Shown here in pieces: positions 4,163 through 20,507 of a DNA stretch of 64,000 bases (positions are counted from its first letter, which is position 1; each line of letters starts with the position of its first letter). The stretch comes from Lactobacillus intestinalis. GTDB taxonomy: Bacteria; Bacillota; Bacilli; Lactobacillales; Lactobacillaceae. Position numbers and translations under genes: made by a program. The notes under the pieces are model-generated. The model ran no database searches, had not been told where the DNA came from, and worked only from the letters and a program-made list of their open reading frames with translations. The stretch spans positions 558,001 through 622,000 of the forward strand of contig NZ_CP072983.1 in assembly GCF_024397795.1 (NCBI RefSeq), written 5' to 3'.

Positions 4163-4729
4163 ATGGCAAAAAGCGACGATATTAATCGAATTATTGATCA
4201 CAAGTTATTTTCAGAAGACGACATTCAAGAAATGTGCAAGCGTCTAGGTAAGCAATTAACCGAAGACTACGCTGGTAAGAAGCCATTAGTGATTGGAGCA
4301 CTGAAGGGCGCAGTTTACTTTTTGACTGATTTGACCAGAGAAATGGATGTTGAAGAACAATTGGACTTTATCGATGTTTCAAGCTATGGGGATGGCTTTG
4401 AATCAACGGGTAAAGTTGAAATTGTCAGCGATGTGGCAACTGATGTGAAAGATCGCGATGTTTTGATCGTAGAAGATATTGTTGACAGTGGTTTGACTTT
4501 GAAGTTTATGAAAGATTTATTCAAAGAGCGCGGTGCTAAGAGTGTCAAGTGTTGCGTAATGCTCAACAAGGAAGCTAGAAGAACTACTGATGTTGAGATT
4601 GAATACTACGGTTCAAAGGTTGGCGATGAATTTGTTGTGGGATACGGCATGGATTTCTTGAACATGTACCGCAACATCCCTTACGTGGGCGTTTTGAAGC
4701 CAGAAATTATCGAAAAGTACATTAAGTAG
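4163..4729 (+). CDS. hpt: Hypoxanthine phosphoribosyltransferase
   Basis: This 188-residue purine-salvage enzyme converts hypoxanthine or guanine plus PRPP to IMP or GMP. The PRPP-binding motif VLIVEDIVDSGLTL lies near residues 96-109. The flexible-loop/active-site region SSYGDG is near 73-78, and the C-terminal base-recognition region contains VVGYGMDF. Length matches bacterial Hpt. In many Firmicutes hpt sits between tilS and ftsH; here it is alone between terminators. An internal part of this gene (4372-4640) is repeated in inverted orientation at 17027-17294 with one base missing, but this copy is intact. Confidence 0.96.
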   Translation: MAKSDDINRIIDHKLFSEDDIQEMCKRLGKQLTEDYAGKKPLVIGALKGAVYFLTDLTREMDVEEQLDFIDVSSYGDGFESTGKVEIVSDVATDVKDRDVLIVEDIVDSGLTLKFMKDLFKERGAKSVKCCVMLNKEARRTTDVEIEYYGSKVGDEFVVGYGMDFLNMYRNIPYVGVLKPEIIEKYIK

Positions 4730-4742
4730 TTTTTGAATTAGA

Positions 4743-4788
4743 ATCTAGAAGAATCAGATGATTAGTACATCTGATTCTTTTTTGATTT
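4743..4788 (+). terminator. hpt terminator, left copy of a direct repeat bracketing the TA pair
   Basis: The inverted repeat GAATCAGATG/CATCTGATTC (loop ATTAGTA or similar) plus a T run forms a Rho-independent terminator 13 bases after hpt. The whole segment recurs at 5506-5552 with one substitution in the loop and one extra T. The two copies therefore flank the toxin-antitoxin genes as a direct repeat of about 46 bp. Confidence 0.9.
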
Positions 4789-5505: not shown

Positions 5506-5552
5506 ATCTAGAAGAATCAGATGATTAGTGCATCTGATTCTTTTTTTGATTT
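5506..5552 (+). terminator. Duplicated hpt-type terminator, right copy flanking the TA pair
   Basis: This is the second copy of the terminator at 4743-4788, with identical stem arms GAATCAGATG/CATCTGATTC, one loop substitution and one extra T. It ends the toxin-antitoxin transcript and gives the cassette direct-repeat borders. Confidence 0.9.
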
Positions 5553-9286: not shown

Positions 9287-10429
9287 ATGCAAAAGATAAA
9301 AGTAATGACAGTTTTTGGTACGCGTCCTGAAGCAATCAAGATGGCGCCATTAGTTTTAAAATTAAAAGAAGACCAACGTTTTGAAGAAGTAACAGTTGTT
9401 TCAGCTCAACACCGTGAGATGCTGGATCAGGTGCTCGACATTTTTAAGATTAAGCCAGATTATGACTTTAACATTATGCATAAGAATCAGACTTTGGAAG
9501 ATATTACTTCTAAAGTAATGACTGATTTGGCGAGGGTAATTAAGAAAGAGAAGCCCGATATTGTCTTGGTTCATGGCGATACTACGACGAGCTTTGCGGC
9601 TAGTTTGGCTACTTTTTATGAACAAACCACGCTCGGCCACGTAGAAGCAGGATTAAGAACTTGGAATAAGTATTCACCGTTTCCTGAAGAAATGAATCGT
9701 CAAATGACCGATGATTTGGCTGATTTATACTTTGCACCAACTGAACTTAGCCGCAGTAATCTGATTAAGGAAAATCATAATGCCGATAATATTTTTGTGA
9801 CGGGCAATACTGCGATTGATGCTTTGCATGAAACTGTTCAAAAAAATTATCATCATGATGTGCTGGATGAAATTACACCAGGGAATCGCGTGATTTTGGT
9901 AACGATGCACCGCCGGGAAAACCAAGGTGAACCAATGCGACGAGTGTTTAAAGTAATAAAGCAAGTAGTGGACACGCATGATGATGTAGAGATTATTTAT
10001 CCGGTGCACTTGTCGCCGCGCGTACAAAAAGTGGCTAAGGAAGTATTAGGCGCCGATCCGAGCATTCACTTAATTGATCCGCTAGATGTGGTGGATTTCC
10101 ATAATTTGGCTAAAAGATCCTACTTTATCATGACTGATTCAGGTGGAGTTCAAGAAGAAGCGCCAAGTTTAGGTAAGCCTGTACTAGTTTTACGAGATAC
10201 AACTGAGCGTCCAGAAGGAGTGAAGGCTGGAACCTTGAAACTTGTTGGCACTGAAGTTGATAAAGTGCATGATGAAATGGTCAAGCTACTCGAAAATAAG
10301 AGTGAATATGATAAGATGGCGAATGCCAAGAATCCATATGGTGATGGTCGTGCCAGTGAGCGCATTATGGATGCAATTTACTATTACTTTAATAAAGATA
10401 CAGCAGAAAGACCAGAAGATTTTGAATAA
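9287..10429 (+). CDS. mnaA: UDP-N-acetylglucosamine 2-epimerase (non-hydrolysing)
   Basis: The 380-residue enzyme interconverts UDP-GlcNAc and UDP-ManNAc for teichoic acid linkage units or other wall polymers. Motifs are FGTRPEAIKMAPLV at the N-terminus, HGDTTTSFAASLA, VEAGLRT, FPEEMNRQMTD and TDSGGVQEEAPSLGKPVLVLRDTTERPEG-type nucleotide-binding residues near 285-315. ATG 9287 is chosen because TTGAGG lies just upstream and family proteins begin here; a longer frame would overlap the small membrane gene. The last three codons and the terminator are part of a 47-bp direct repeat that recurs at 12542. Confidence 0.95.
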   Translation: MQKIKVMTVFGTRPEAIKMAPLVLKLKEDQRFEEVTVVSAQHREMLDQVLDIFKIKPDYDFNIMHKNQTLEDITSKVMTDLARVIKKEKPDIVLVHGDTTTSFAASLATFYEQTTLGHVEAGLRTWNKYSPFPEEMNRQMTDDLADLYFAPTELSRSNLIKENHNADNIFVTGNTAIDALHETVQKNYHHDVLDEITPGNRVILVTMHRRENQGEPMRRVFKVIKQVVDTHDDVEIIYPVHLSPRVQKVAKEVLGADPSIHLIDPLDVVDFHNLAKRSYFIMTDSGGVQEEAPSLGKPVLVLRDTTERPEGVKAGTLKLVGTEVDKVHDEMVKLLENKSEYDKMANAKNPYGDGRASERIMDAIYYYFNKDTAERPEDFE

Positions 10430-10465
10430 CGAAAAAAGCTGATGTGATAGTGCATCAGCTTTTTT
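10419..10465 (+). terminator. mnaA terminator, left copy of a 47-bp direct repeat
   Basis: The stem GCTGATG/CATCAGC with an 8-base loop and six T residues forms a terminator. The repeat starts within the final mnaA codons and recurs at 12542-12588 with 45 of 47 positions identical; the two differences are in the loop. The copies bracket the SLAP and helveticin J-like genes. Confidence 0.9.
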
Positions 10466-11545: not shown

Positions 11546-12536
11546 ATGATTAACTTAAACACTACAATTTTGAGTAAACCTAGATTTACCTTTGAGGGTG
11601 AATATGATAGAGTGGTTCAAAAAGGAAATGTAGGAACCAGTTATGTATATGCTTTACAATTATACAGAGGTCATACTTGTGTTTTAAGAGGACGTCGGAA
11701 TGATAATTCTTCTACTGTAAAAGTAAATAGGTCTCAGGAAGTCGATTTGACTGGTTCAGCAGGCGGTCATACTCAAACATGGGAATATGCGGGAAGCGCT
11801 GCTCAAAACAACTTTAATGGTGATTGATTTATTGGAACTAAGGGTCAACGAGCTTCAGATGGATATGATTGGGATATTCAACTAGCTAGAATTCATTTTC
11901 CAACTAGCGCTAATGATAATACGCAATTAGTAAGACTTTCGCATTTAAATCAGGTAGGAACGGCTAGCTTTGACGGTGCTGCTTATAGAACTGAAGCAGC
12001 TGTTACTCCAGATTATCAGATTATCGTAGATTAATGATTGTAGCGCTTGATGACAGTAAAAATGCCCATTTTGGTTTATTTGATTTGGCTACCATTAATA
12101 GTCGACTCAATGGAGTTCAAACTAGTGGATCTAAACAAGGACATGTGCCATTAAATGAGGTGACTTCCTTAGCTTCTTTTACTATTCCGGCAATTACAAA
12201 TACTATTCCTTCTCTTCAAGGATTTGATATTGATAATAGGAATAACATTTATGTTTCTTGTCAACCTCATCCAGTTTGGCCAAAAGGTCAACGCGGACCT
12301 CGCCAAATTGTAAAAATTCCATGGGGTGAAACTGGAAGTAGTAATTGGTATGTCGCAAACTATGATGGATATAATTCTGATTTAGATATTTCAGGCTACT
12401 ACACTGAATTTGAAGGTGTTCAAGTAATTGATGAAGACAGTTTATATTTAACAGTTTTGCATATCATCATGCAAATAAAAGTTTACTTACAGATAAAAAT
12501 AAGATCTTCAAAATTAGTGGTTTCCAGACATATTAA
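11546..12536 (+). pseudogene. Helveticin J-like class III bacteriocin gene, decayed
   Basis: A good ribosome site (AAAAGGAG) precedes ATG 11546. The translation matches the helveticin J family in its beginning (INLNTTILSKPRFTF) and its later FDIDNRNNIYVSCQPHP segment. Three lesions are seen. An in-frame TGA stands at 11825-11827, where the protein should continue FIGTKGQRASDGYDWDIQL; TGG Trp is the likely ancestor. A frameshift lies near 12031-12034. A second frameshift lies in the T run near 12456, after which the third frame reads YHHANKSLLTDKNKIFKISG and ends TAA at 12534-12536. Full-length protein cannot be made. Helveticin J lyses related lactobacilli. Confidence 0.85.
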
Positions 12537-12541
12537 TTTGA

Positions 12542-12588
12542 ATTTTGAATAACGAAAAAAGCTGATGTAATAATGCATCAGCTTTTTT
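12542..12588 (+). terminator. Duplicated mnaA-type terminator, right copy
   Basis: This is the second copy of the repeat at 10419-10465, including the remnant of the last mnaA codons (ATTTTGAATAA) although no mnaA gene precedes it here. The stem arms are identical; two loop bases differ. Confidence 0.9.
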
Positions 12589-15208: not shown

Positions 15209-16120
15209 ATGAAATCTAATAAAGAAGTTCGTGAAAATATAGGACTTTTTTATAAAACACTCTCAGGTAAAATCTCTAATGGAGAAATAGTGGTCAGTTC
15301 TATTGTGATTGCCTACTATATCTTATTTTCGATCTTTCCAATCATTATTATTGTCGGAAACATTTTGCCTTTATTTCATATCAATACTGCCCCAATTGCG
15401 GAGTATTTAAGGTTAGTTTTTCCGGATCAAGTTTCAGAATTCATTATGCCAATCATTAATTCTCTTTTGAAAAGCAATTCAACAGGATACATTTCTTTTG
15501 GTATTATCTTTGCGATTTGGTCGTTTTCTTCCTTAGTTAATGCAATTAGGATTGGAATGAATCGAATTTATGGTGTTCATCAAGCTGAGCTTAAGCAGAA
15601 GCTTTTAATTGTGGTTTGGACGCGCTCTATTACAGTGATTTTAACTACTTTGATGATTATTGTATTTACTGCAGTAGCTTTAGTATTTATTTTTGGTCAA
15701 CAAGTTTTGGAATTCCTAAAGCCAATCTTTAGTTTTTCAATTGGTGAAATCCAAAGAATTTTAAATTATCGCTATCCAGTAGTCTTTATCATCATGATGA
15801 TTGCAGTTTTTTACCTTAATTATGTTTTACCAAATATTAAGCTTAAAAAGAGAGTCATTTGGCCAGGGGCCTTGACTACAGTGTTTGGCTGGTTTGTTTT
15901 ATCCTATCTGTTTAGTTTTTACTTGCATAATTTCCATATTAGCTGGGAAAACTACGGGATTGTAGGAACGTTTATTATGTTTATGCTGTGGCTGAACTTA
16001 ACTGCATTGTTGCTGTTATTTGGAACTTGTATCAATGCAGCCATAGTTCAAATGCGAGTGGGTAAGGTTCCTTATTCCGCGGGAAGGCTGGTAGAATACA
16101 TTCAAAAAAGTCGTAGATGA
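15209..16120 (+). CDS. YihY/BrkB-family integral membrane protein
   Basis: The 303-residue protein has six strongly hydrophobic segments and the YihY (once 'RNase BN') family pattern, including YYILFSIFPIIIIVGN near residues 31-46 and SFSSLVNAIRIGMNRIYG. The C-terminus is basic. Its function is not established; proposals include a transporter or envelope role, and the ribonuclease label is an old error. It follows map by 6 bases and precedes galU with a new promoter. Confidence 0.9.
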   Translation: MKSNKEVRENIGLFYKTLSGKISNGEIVVSSIVIAYYILFSIFPIIIIVGNILPLFHINTAPIAEYLRLVFPDQVSEFIMPIINSLLKSNSTGYISFGIIFAIWSFSSLVNAIRIGMNRIYGVHQAELKQKLLIVVWTRSITVILTTLMIIVFTAVALVFIFGQQVLEFLKPIFSFSIGEIQRILNYRYPVVFIIMMIAVFYLNYVLPNIKLKKRVIWPGALTTVFGWFVLSYLFSFYLHNFHISWENYGIVGTFIMFMLWLNLTALLLLFGTCINAAIVQMRVGKVPYSAGRLVEYIQKSRR

Positions 16121-16136
16121 GGTAAGCGATTTCTGG

Positions 16137-16142
16137 TATGAT
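16137..16142 (+). promoter_or_regulatory. Extended -10 promoter of galU
   Basis: TATGAT preceded by TGG (TGnTATGAT) lies 36 bases before the galU ATG. The -35 region is weak, as is usual for extended -10 promoters. Confidence 0.5.
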
Positions 16143-16178
16143 AAATTTTAGGGTAGAAAATAGAAAGAGTGTTTTTTT

Positions 16179-17054
16179 ATGAAAGTTAGAAAAGCTGTTA
16201 TTCCGGCAGCCGGTTTAGGTACAAGATTTTTGCCTGCAACTAAGGCAATGCCTAAAGAAATGGTGCCAATTGTTGATAAGCCGACTATTCAATTTATTGT
16301 TGAAGAGGCTAAGAAGTCTGGAATTGAAGATATTTTAATCGTAACTGGTAAAAATAAGCGTTCAATCGAAGATCATTTTGATGCTAATCCTGAGTTGGAA
16401 CAAGATTTGGAAGAAAAGGGCAAGACGAACTTGCTTCATTTAACTCAATCAATTACTAATTTAGGGATTAACTTATACTTTACTCGTCAACCTCATCCAG
16501 CTGGTTTGGGGGATGCAATATTACGAGCACGCAGCTTCGTTGGAGACGAACCTTTTGCGGTAATGCTTGGTGATGATTTGATGGACGATAAGGTTCCACT
16601 TACTAAACAACTAATTAACAGATATAATAAAACGCACGCTTCAACTATTGCAGTTATGCCAGTGCCACATGAAGAAGTTTCAAAGTACGGGGTAATTGAA
16701 CCAGCCAGCGAGATCGAACCGGGCTTGATTAATGTTAAGTCTTTTGTAGAAAAGCCTGATATTGATAAAGCTCCAAGTGATTACGCAATTATTGGTCGTT
16801 ACCTTTTGACGCCAGAAATCTTTGAAATTTTGGCTCATCAAAAACCAGGTCGTGGTGGAGAAGTTCAATTAACTGATGCCATTGATACGATGAATAAGAC
16901 TCAACGAGTTTTTGCTCATGTATTTAATGGCGAACGTCACGATGTTGGTAACAAGGAAGGCTATCTTGAAACTTCCATCGAATATGGTCTTTCTCACCCT
17001 GAAATTAAAGATGAACTTCGTCAATACCACAACAAATTCATCGCCAACCTTTGA
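16179..17054 (+). CDS. galU: UTP-glucose-1-phosphate uridylyltransferase with replaced C-terminus
   Basis: The enzyme makes UDP-glucose for teichoic acid, glycolipid and polysaccharide synthesis. Motifs are [26 protein letters not shown] residues 7-28, [36 protein letters not shown] and FVEKP. The catalytic domain is complete. At 17027 the DNA switches to an inverted hpt fragment, so the last native codons after DELRQY are lost and HNKFIANL is added before a chance stop. The lost part is probably about ten residues, since family members are close to 300. Activity may be retained. Confidence 0.9.
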
Positions 17055-17294
17055 ACCGTAGTATTCAATCTCAACATCAGTAGTTCTTCTAGCTTCCTTG
17101 TTGAGCATTACGCAACACTTGACACTCTTAGCACCGCGCTCTTTGAATAAATCTTCATAAACTTCAAAGTCAAACCACTGTCAACAATATCTTCTACGAT
17201 CAAAACATCGCGATCTTTCACATCAGTTGCCACATCGCTGACAATTTCAACTTTACCCGTTGATTCAAAGCCATCCCCATAGCTTGAAACATCG
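17027..17294 (-). pseudogene. hpt: Inverted internal fragment of hpt
   Basis: The reverse complement of 17027-17294 matches 4372-4640 of hpt base for base over the whole length except one deleted A in the AAAG run of TATGAAAGATT. It covers about residues 70-159 of Hpt, lacks start and stop, and is frameshifted. Its left edge interrupts galU and its right edge coincides with the first remaining base of thiolase. Identity of 268/269 means the copy is very recent or is an assembly artefact. Confidence 0.95.
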
Positions 17295-18115
17295 GTGGAA
17301 GTGAAAGCATGACCAACGCTCCTTTTATTGTTGAGAAAAAGTATAAAGATGATGCTCAAAATCACTTGAAAAATTCAATGTTGGTGGATGCTTTAATTGA
17401 TGCTTTTTCTGGTGAACATATGGGAATCACTGCCGAAAATGTGGCTGAAGAATATAATATTACTCGCCAAGAAATGGATGAATTTAGTGTGGATTCTCAT
17501 CAAAAAGCCGTTAAGGCAATTGAAGAAGATAATTTTGATGAAATTTTACCAATTACTATTAATGGTCAAACTTTGACTCATGATGAAAGTGTAAGAAGTG
17601 ACACTAATTTAGAAGCATTGGGTAAATTAAAGACCGTTTTTAAAGAAGATGGTAAAGTAACCGCTGGGAATGCCTCACCTTTGAATGATGGAGCTAGTAT
17701 GTTGATATTAGCAACTGAAGAAAAAGTAAAAGAACTCAATTTGAAGCCGATTGCCAAACTAGGTGCCTTCGCTGAAGCAGGTTTTGATCCAGCTTTGATG
17801 GGATATACTCCTTACTACGCTGTTCGAAAATTACTTGATAAAAATAAGACTACTGTTGATGATTATGATGTCTTCGAAGTCAATGAAGCTTTTGCCTCCC
17901 AAGCAGTAGCTTTAAAACGTGATTTGAAAATTCCGGCTAATAAACTTAATATTTTAGGTGGTGCGATTGCTTTGGGTCACCCATTAGGAGCAACCGGTAC
18001 TAGATTAATCGCCACTGCAATTAGTGCATTAAATAAAGTAAATGGTAAAAGAGCAATTGCGACCTTGTGTATTGGTGGAGGTCAAGCAATTGCTTATGAA
18101 ATTAAGCGGGATTAA
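17294..18115 (+). pseudogene. Acetyl-CoA acetyltransferase (thiolase), 5'-truncated
   Basis: From 17294 the frame reads GGSESMTNAPFIV, a conserved thiolase segment normally near residue 115-120 of about 390. The first third of the enzyme, including the nucleophilic Cys, is absent. The remaining catalytic signatures are present: VNEAFASQA, GGAIALGHPLGATG and the C-terminal CIGGGQA Cys. An ATG at 17309 could start a 268-residue remnant, but it should be inactive. The enzyme condenses two acetyl-CoA in the first mevalonate step, fitting its neighbours mvaA and mvaS. The native promoter and start are also lost. Confidence 0.9.
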
Positions 18116-18117
18116 AG

Positions 18118-19344
18118 ATGAAATTTTATCAATTGTCGGCTAAGGATCGTCGGAAGATTTTAGATGATGAAGGAATTGAACTTGAAGAAATCGATGAGGA
18201 AGTTTTAGAAAAGCTCAATAACTTAAGTGAAAATGTCATTGGTCAGCTTCGTTTACCTTTGGGCGTCGTTCAGAGTTTAAATGTAAATGACGCAAATTAC
18301 ATGGTGCCAATGGCAACTGAGGAACCCTCAGTGATTGCTGCAGCCAATCACGGCGCTAGCATTTTTAATAAAAATGGTGGGGTGGTTGCTTCAAGTGATC
18401 GAAGTGGAATTTATGGCCAGATTGTGATGGCGATTGAAGATGATTTTGACTTAGCTTTAGTAGAAAAGAAAAAATCAGCTTTAATTAAAGAGGCCAATGA
18501 TAAATTTTCTTCTTTAGTTAACCATGGTGGTGGATTGTGCAAGATCGAATTTTCTTTAAAAAATGGCGATCAACAAAAGTTGCTCTATGCTTTGTGCTTG
18601 ATTGATCCAGCAGAAGCCATGGGGGCAAACAAGGCTAATTCGATTTTAGAATTTTTAGCTCAAAACTTGCTGGCCGTAAGAGGAATCAGTGAAAAACTTT
18701 ATGCAATTTTGTCTAATTATCCAAGTCAACTCACTACTGCTAAAGTAGAACTTGATTTTGCCAGTGTGGGCGGCAGAAAAGTTGCTGAAAGAGTGGTTTT
18801 ATTAAGTAAAATCGGTCAAATCGATCCCTACCGTGCAGTTACCAATAACAAAGGGATCATGAATGGCGTGGACGCGGTCTTATTGGCCACTGGAAATGAT
18901 TACCGGGCCATTGAAGCAGCAAGTGCGGTTCTAGCTAGTCGAAATGGCTATACCAGTTTAAGCAGATGGAGGATTAAAGATCAAAAATTGGTTGGCGAAT
19001 TGACTTTGCCAATGGCAATTGGTGCAGTTGGTGGTTCAATTAATGCTCGCAGTGATGTGAAGCAGGCTTTCAATATTTTAAATCCTACAAATCGCATTTC
19101 TGTAAAAGATTTAGCTAATGTGATTACGAGTATTGGTTTAGCTAATAATCTAGCGGCACTACTTGCAATATCAACAGTTGGGATTCAAGAAGGTCATATG
19201 AAATTGCAAGCGCGTAACTTGGTCGCAAGTTTAAATGTGCCTGAATCTGAAAAAGAAAAAGTCCTTAAGCAATTGATAAAAGATAAGATTTATACAAAAG
19301 AGCACGTTCAAGAAATACTAAAAGAAATAAGTGAGGATAAATAA
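18118..19344 (+). CDS. mvaA: Hydroxymethylglutaryl-CoA reductase, class II
   Basis: The 408-residue enzyme reduces HMG-CoA to mevalonate for isoprenoid synthesis. It has the bacterial class II pattern: ENVIGQLRLPLGVVQSL near residues 40-56, MVPMATEEPSVIAAANHGA near 62-80, and GNDYRAIEA. The late LPMAIGAVGGSIN segment and GHMKLQARN give the catalytic His region. Length is typical. The start lies 2 bases after the thiolase stop and the stop overlaps the mvaS start, so the three genes form one operon. Its original promoter seems removed with the thiolase 5' end. Confidence 0.95.
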   Translation: MKFYQLSAKDRRKILDDEGIELEEIDEEVLEKLNNLSENVIGQLRLPLGVVQSLNVNDANYMVPMATEEPSVIAAANHGASIFNKNGGVVASSDRSGIYGQIVMAIEDDFDLALVEKKKSALIKEANDKFSSLVNHGGGLCKIEFSLKNGDQQKLLYALCLIDPAEAMGANKANSILEFLAQNLLAVRGISEKLYAILSNYPSQLTTAKVELDFASVGGRKVAERVVLLSKIGQIDPYRAVTNNKGIMNGVDAVLLATGNDYRAIEAASAVLASRNGYTSLSRWRIKDQKLVGELTLPMAIGAVGGSINARSDVKQAFNILNPTNRISVKDLANVITSIGLANNLAALLAISTVGIQEGHMKLQARNLVASLNVPESEKEKVLKQLIKDKIYTKEHVQEILKEISEDK

Positions 19345-20507
19345 TGCGAATTGGTATTGATCAGATAGGTTTTTATACTCCTAATAAATATGTGGACATG
19401 GTAGATTTAGCTCATGCGAGAGGGGAAGATCCTAATAAGTTTTTAATTGGGATTGGTCAAAGACAAATGAGTGTAGCTGACAAGACTCAAGATGCTGTAT
19501 CGATGGGGATTAATGCCACTTTAAGATATTTAGATCAAATTGACAAAGATAAGGTTGGCTTGTTAATTTTTGGTACTGAAAGTAGTGTGGACCAATCTAA
19601 GTCAGCTTCCTTGTTCGTGAAGTCTGCCTTGCATTTACGTCCAGAAGTTAGAACTTTTGAAGTAAAGGAAGCTTGTTTTGGTTTAACGGCAGCTTTAATG
19701 ACTGCCCGTGATTTCGTCAGGGTACATCCCGATCAAACTGCGATTGTTATTGGGAGTGATATTGCTCGATATGGTGTTAAAACGCCAGGTGAAGTTACCC
19801 AAGGTGCGGGAAGCATTAGTTTATTAGTAAAGAGTGAACCGAGGATTTTATCCTTAAATGATGGCCACAGTGCATACAGTGAGGATATTAATGACTTTTG
19901 GCGTCCTAACGATTCTGCAGTTGCTAAAGTTGATGGTAAGTATTCAACTCAAGTTTATTTAGACTTCTTCAAAAAGACCTTTGATGCTTATAAAGAGCAA
20001 AAAGACTGGAGTACCCGTGACTTTAGTGCTTTGATTTATCATTTGCCATTTACTAAGCAAGGATTAAAAGCTAATCGCCTTGCAATTGAAGATCAAGATG
20101 ATGTGACTAAGGATCGTTTAAGTGAAACTTTTGAAGCTTCTAAGCAATTAAGTATGCGAGTAGGGAATATTTACACTGCATCTTTATACATGAGCTTGTT
20201 AAGCTTGCTTGAAAACTATGATCTTGAGCCTAATTCTTTAATTGGACTATTTTCTTATGGTTCAGGTGCGATGGCGGAATTTTTCTCAGGAAATGTTGTT
20301 GATGGTTATAAAGAATGGATTAACCCTAAGGGGGATGCAGCTTTGCTTGATGATCGTCAGAGATTAACAGTTGAAGAATACGAAAAGGTATTTACCGAAG
20401 CCCTAGAGCCAGTAGCTAATAATCGAGAATTTACTAGTGATGAACGTCAAGGTGTTTGGTATTTTGCTGGTGTGAAAAATGATATCCGTCAATATCGTCA
20501 AGTTTAA
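19344..20507 (+). CDS. mvaS: Hydroxymethylglutaryl-CoA synthase
   Basis: The 387-residue enzyme condenses acetyl-CoA with acetoacetyl-CoA to HMG-CoA. The catalytic Cys is in EVKEACFGLTAAL (near residue 111), the catalytic His in YHLPFTKQGLKA and the Glu near the N-terminus (GIGQRQM region). GSGAMAEFFSG near 311 is the usual C-terminal motif. It overlaps mvaA by one base (TAATG). With thiolase truncated, the supply of acetoacetyl-CoA for this enzyme is uncertain. Confidence 0.95.
   Translation: MRIGIDQIGFYTPNKYVDMVDLAHARGEDPNKFLIGIGQRQMSVADKTQDAVSMGINATLRYLDQIDKDKVGLLIFGTESSVDQSKSASLFVKSALHLRPEVRTFEVKEACFGLTAALMTARDFVRVHPDQTAIVIGSDIARYGVKTPGEVTQGAGSISLLVKSEPRILSLNDGHSAYSEDINDFWRPNDSAVAKVDGKYSTQVYLDFFKKTFDAYKEQKDWSTRDFSALIYHLPFTKQGLKANRLAIEDQDDVTKDRLSETFEASKQLSMRVGNIYTASLYMSLLSLLENYDLEPNSLIGLFSYGSGAMAEFFSGNVVDGYKEWINPKGDAALLDDRQRLTVEEYEKVFTEALEPVANNREFTSDERQGVWYFAGVKNDIRQYRQV

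Follow-up and report, generated by a model that had tools for sequence, protein, structure and literature searches.

A genome of the gut bacterium Lactobacillus intestinalis carries an inverted 268-bp copy of hpt, the gene of hypoxanthine phosphoribosyltransferase, in place of the end of galU and the beginning of a thiolase (acetyl-CoA acetyltransferase) gene, while the intact hpt lies 12.4 kb upstream of the copy. This replacement is probably a genuine one-off accident; a single recent and real rearrangement in one L. intestinalis strain, by way of a double template switch, is the likely reading, and the odds that the rearrangement is real are put at about four in five. The interest comes chiefly from the thiolase, the opening enzyme of the mevalonate pathway, having no spare copy: if the lesion is real, the organism has lost the sole thiolase match, on which its isoprenoid precursors should depend, and a requirement for mevalonate or acetoacetate is predicted.

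The inverted hpt copy and its two joints

The window, that is, the whole stretch of 64,000 nucleotides that was analysed, represents positions 558001-622000 of the largest of three contigs (1,699,754, 319,380 and 19,578 bp, 2,038,712 bp in total, with zero N). The C2 contig of this assembly is similar to L. johnsonii plasmids (the best record covering 51% at 93.7%), and plasmid sequences gave no match to window positions 16000-18200.

When the window was compared with itself by BLASTN, 17024-17294 aligned with the minus strand of 4643-4372 at 270 of 272 positions with one gap (E about 2e-135). Within it, 17027-17294 holds 268 bases against the 269 bases of hpt 4372-4640, without a mismatch and with one T missing from a run of three after 17155. 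The preliminary description, which took this segment as the reverse complement of hpt minus a deleted A, is hence borne out by both BLASTN and alignment, its A being the plus-strand T read on the hpt strand. The source gene is retained at 4163-4729 on the plus strand and encodes 188 aa that score above the HGPRTase cut-off (TIGR01203, 191.8 bits; cut-off 150). In the genome, hpt was the only high-identity partner of the copy. A list of 29 pairs of repeats with lengths of 60-1100 bp and ≥95% identity (some, the hpt pair included, listed twice) held two other groups that were inspected; both were ordinary, lying in S-layer and in hsdS genes. The insert is wholly hpt coding sequence and has no mobile-element part, which rules out an IS or transposon insertion.

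At the left joint (17027), galU (16179-17054, plus strand; TIGR01099, 371 bits) passes into hpt antisense. Its product reads LRQY and then HNKFIANL and a stop, against IIKMGAELEKEDKSKKKK in P0121, P0122 and P0123, which are 97-98% identical to GalU here and whose native end is ...LRQYIIKMGAELEKEDKSKKKK. These tails indicate that the last 18 codons and the stop were replaced by 8 foreign codons and a stop from hpt antisense, in agreement with the earlier observation that the left edge of the copy cuts the last galU codons. The function of GalU is probably little affected by the swap, since the tail varies in length among relatives (GalU has mostly 293 to 315 aa among the matches listed) and a galU paralogue with 80% DNA identity is present at C1:1457521-1458356.

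At the right joint (17294), hpt antisense directly precedes codon 113 of the 385 thiolase codons of the reference P0004 (GGSES), and ahead of GGSESM the reading frame consists of hpt antisense interrupted by stops. Thiolase similarity starts at 17294 in several congeners as well, so that the right edge of the copy is, as first described, exactly the start of thiolase homology. The remaining thiolase frame, 17309-18115 on the plus strand, encodes 268 of 385 aa and covers TIGR01930 positions 113-382. It is followed by intact genes, both on the plus strand, for HMG-CoA reductase (18118-19344; TIGR00532, 263.3 bits, cut-off 259.95) and HMG-CoA synthase (19344-20507; TIGR01835, 433.4 bits, cut-off 360.35). 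Thiolase codons 1-112 are absent, and with them Cys88 in NDVCGSS, which we take to be the acyl-enzyme cysteine of thiolases; the remaining protein is thus expected to be inactive.

The locus in relatives

P0004, a thiolase of 385 aa with the source name Lactobacillus intestinalis, is 100% identical over the remaining 268 aa, which gives the lesion a recent, strain-level look, and intact conspecific thiolases were found on many contigs. Short thiolase forms were also present. P0021, of 268 aa, has the same first residue and 96% identity, lies on a 42,605-base contig and stands for 7 sequences; it may be either another truncated allele or an effect of the contig edge, and in the former case it would speak against a one-off event. 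Two further short forms are P0042 (283 aa) and P0046 (294 aa). In the congener G067, the thiolase match at C106:2200-2930 falls into three pieces, possibly a second broken thiolase.

One galU locus was compared from each of 29 of 36 matching congeners. The thiolase was also matched within the fetched flanks of 13 of these loci and was absent from the flanks of the other 16, while L. agrestimuris (L034) and L. xujianguonis (L035) have the thiolase without a galU match, indicating that the ancestral galU-thiolase neighbourhood is not universal. No hpt match was found at any of the 29 galU loci. The comparison with other galU and thiolase loci proposed in the preliminary description therefore spoke for a rearranged locus here, as 13 relatives pair the two genes, none has hpt there, and an intact conspecific thiolase exists.

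The best-scoring relative, G024, shares 82% DNA identity over galU and the stretch upstream of it. Between the equivalent breakpoints, G024 has 551 bp, which comprise the galU tail, a terminator-like hairpin, a gap and the thiolase start. Across the 13 paired loci, this distance was 551 bp in G024, 499-549 bp in eight others (five of these with the thiolase start placed by extrapolation from a match beginning further in) and 1113 bp in one, and it was unmeasurable in three. Among the best 80 of the 175 loci of the genome-contig scan there was no L. intestinalis DNA record, and the native bases at the joints were taken from G024. With the G024 codons as the native stand-in, 1 nt is shared at the left joint (C 17027) and 1 nt at the right joint (G 17294), hence 0-1 nt at each; the near-absence of microhomology noted earlier thus holds, while its extent is 0-1 nt instead of the 1-2 bases then given.

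The joints themselves were also looked for elsewhere. A fused minus-strand ORF at 17111-17365 matches phosphoribosyltransferase-domain proteins (at least 120 of 604 at E ≤ 0.001), the best with 71% identity over 80% of the query; neither the right joint in another assembly nor the ORF itself was among the matches listed, so this negative carries little weight. A 25-base pattern across the right joint had 0 matches in viral contigs, where none was expected. Among the papers listed on L. intestinalis genomes and on Lactobacillus mevalonate auxotrophy, none describes the lesion in its title or abstract opening.

Effect on the mevalonate pathway

Searches of the genome with the thiolase N-domain and C-domain profiles each matched this locus alone, so no second thiolase was found. 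DXR was also without a match in the genome, in a search whose control was positive in 10 of 14 genomes, whereas diphosphomevalonate decarboxylase was found; together these indicate that the organism should depend on mevalonate. Of 61 surveyed genomes of the genus, 49 had a completeness of 90% or more and a contamination of 5% or less, and 46 of the 49, including the present one, have HMG-CoA synthase. By a hand count, 44 of these 46 have a thiolase over the whole N-domain, G067 has a split one, and the present genome lacks the first 108 positions. Consistently, a full thiolase was absent from all three near-complete genomes that lack HMG-CoA synthase (G012, G077 and G079). The counts show that thiolase and HMG-CoA synthase co-occur, with the present genome as the exception, and the first step of the pathway is expected to be lost or bypassed.

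A YdiF-like CoA-transferase could in principle provide such a bypass as a candidate enzyme for converting acetoacetate to acetoacetyl-CoA. It has 523 aa and a PF01144 match at C3:94683-95381, its closest solved structure is E. coli YdiF (E 8.2e-134), and its Staph_FadX score of 419.2 bits is below the cut-off of 750. The gene (L215 652-2223, on C3) adjoins a FabK-like gene. PF01144 was matched in 7 of the 61 genomes and in 5 of the 49 near-complete ones, including the present genome. However, G024 has both the CoA-transferase and a full thiolase, so the enzyme is no specific compensation. Some lactobacilli, such as L. acidophilus ATCC 4963, may require mevalonate, a lead that carries no weight for the present genome.

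A related case is the S. aureus delta-mvaS mutant, which is reported to need mevalonate until a bypass is gained that is thought to enter at mevalonate (PMC6052127). There too an upper step of the pathway is missing; in contrast, that mutant was engineered, whereas here the first step, the thiolase, is affected in a sequenced genome. A fuller account, in which the lesion is real and tolerated because external mevalonate, or acetoacetate through the YdiF-like CoA-transferase, feeds the pathway, with a galU read-through transcript carrying antisense hpt driving the HMG-CoA genes, is tentative and rather doubtful. This assembly lacks part of a gene that is whole elsewhere in the species, so pathway calls based on it alone would be wrong.

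Origin of the junction

The region could also be normal in the strain, and the junction could come from a chimeric template, for instance from whole-genome amplification, or from a false join. This is unlikely, but it draws weight from the cost of the lesion: losing the sole thiolase match without DXR makes an artefact of sequencing or culture more probable, the more so as the lost step is kept in full by 44 of the 46 near-complete genomes with HMG-CoA synthase. Moreover, chimeras of multiple displacement amplification (MDA) most often consist of inverted sequence with a deletion in between (more than 85% of 475; PMC1855051), and the present insert has the same form. However, more than 70% of the MDA joints described there share 2-21 nt against 0-1 nt here, and the present case has two joints in one consensus and a copy one base off its source. 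An artefact would need both joints on one molecule, and this molecule would have to win the consensus. The two copies of hpt differ by the missing T, which favours a real event, as joining the same molecules would give no difference, though a sequencing error could mimic it. The assembly also places long repeats: near-identical copies of 5.3-5.5 kb, in pairs (one checked, with 16S, 23S and 5S rRNA), and, at 1.5 kb, several more (one checked, OrfB_IS605). Near-identical copies of these sizes are rarely placed from short reads alone. With rRNA and IS605-type repeats placed in contigs free of N, the assembly itself favours a real rearrangement. Between the inverted duplication with deletion and the false join, which the preliminary description had left side by side, the one-base difference, the absence of hpt from all 29 congeneric loci and the placed repeats better support the former.

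For a real rearrangement, a double template switch is favoured because a single event then accounts for the inverted copy, the retained source and the local loss. In this scheme, a replication end that had stalled or broken would have moved to the opposite-strand hpt template 12.4 kb upstream, copied 268 nt of hpt, and returned beyond the deleted stretch, so that 268 bp of inverted hpt would have taken the place of some 550 bp from galU codon 283 to thiolase codon 113. Two features expected of such an event were found, namely an insert copied from elsewhere with its source retained, and a loss of local sequence between the joints, the latter as judged against congeners and conspecific proteins. 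Inverted templated insertion with deletion is a known kind of event, and the present locus is one more bacterial case. Similar to the FoSTeS/MMBIR-type rearrangements of E. coli outlined in PMC3161906, it has a non-local inverted insert, no long homology and a kept source; unlike them, it measures 268 bp instead of 5.2-42.6 kb and comes with no amplification. The embedded inverted duplications of E. coli have 3-30 bp at their joints (PMC3161906), and the 0-1 nt found here counts against a template switch in this respect. With little or no shared sequence at either joint, microhomology provides no evidence for the mechanism.

The blunt look of these 0-1 nt joints would suit end joining, in which a break between galU and the thiolase gene was trimmed back and then closed by a loose 268-bp piece of hpt. 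This explanation is improbable, as it needs the piece to have existed as a free copy besides the intact hpt source, and as the genome gave no match to Ku (PF02735), for which a control search was positive in 1 of 14 genomes, that of B. subtilis. Classical NHEJ was rejected on the Ku result.

Two 268-bp inverted repeats 12.4 kb apart could in principle recombine, and membership of a programmed inversion system was considered, on the model of this genome's hsdS and slpA-type loci. Those loci likewise have high-identity inverted repeats a few kb apart, but they are built differently: theirs join specificity or S-layer genes, whereas here the repeat is a fragment of a housekeeping gene, and inverting the interval would break hpt. 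No recombinase was found among the 18 window proteins scanned (77 ORFs were listed). With repeats that are pieces of hpt and not variable genes, this idea was rejected as hardly credible. As for the switch-like loci themselves, 211-265 bp repeats in both orientations occur at three SlpA-domain S-layer genes (L123 3714-11274; C1:163714-171274) and resemble the slpA/slpB inversion. A type I restriction locus (L176 9776-18010; C1 about 1289.8-1298.0 kb) has a second, inverted hsdS piece with an integrase-family gene between, an arrangement that looks like phase variation.

If a double template switch did remove the interval, the galU terminator may have been lost with it. A scan of the plus strand at 15900-18200 gave no terminator-like site. 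Of the 13 congeners with paired loci, 6 carry a terminator-like hairpin at a distance of up to about 50 nt from the galU stop, 2 have one only far downstream, and 5 have none. Based on these two results, galU transcription may continue across the antisense hpt and reach the genes of HMG-CoA reductase and HMG-CoA synthase. The read-through transcript would hold 268 nt complementary to hpt, and together with a hairpin near the stop in 6 of 13 relatives and none here, this could point to a selected arrangement in which antisense hpt tunes hpt. Such a function is very unlikely: the arrangement is known from one genome and from none of the 29 congeneric loci, intact conspecific thiolases occur on many contigs, no Rfam match was found at 16000-18300, and 7 of the 13 relatives show no hairpin near the galU stop either.

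Additional repeats in the window

Downstream of the intact hpt, a 47-bp near-identical direct repeat with a terminator-like hairpin (4743-4788 and 5506-5552) flanks a two-gene module, which consists of a 99-aa ORF that matches no Pfam family and a 133-aa protein of the Fic/DOC family. The module, which is Phd-Doc-like, has the appearance of an insertion next to a terminator that was duplicated. Another 47-bp repeat (10419-10465 and 12542-12588) is common to the ends of a UDP-GlcNAc 2-epimerase gene and of a 172-aa Helveticin_J-like ORF (12034-12549), the latter matching only positions 144-292 of the 314 positions of Helveticin_J. Finally, a MucBP-domain protein has internal 345-bp repeats (81%) at 483-1091.
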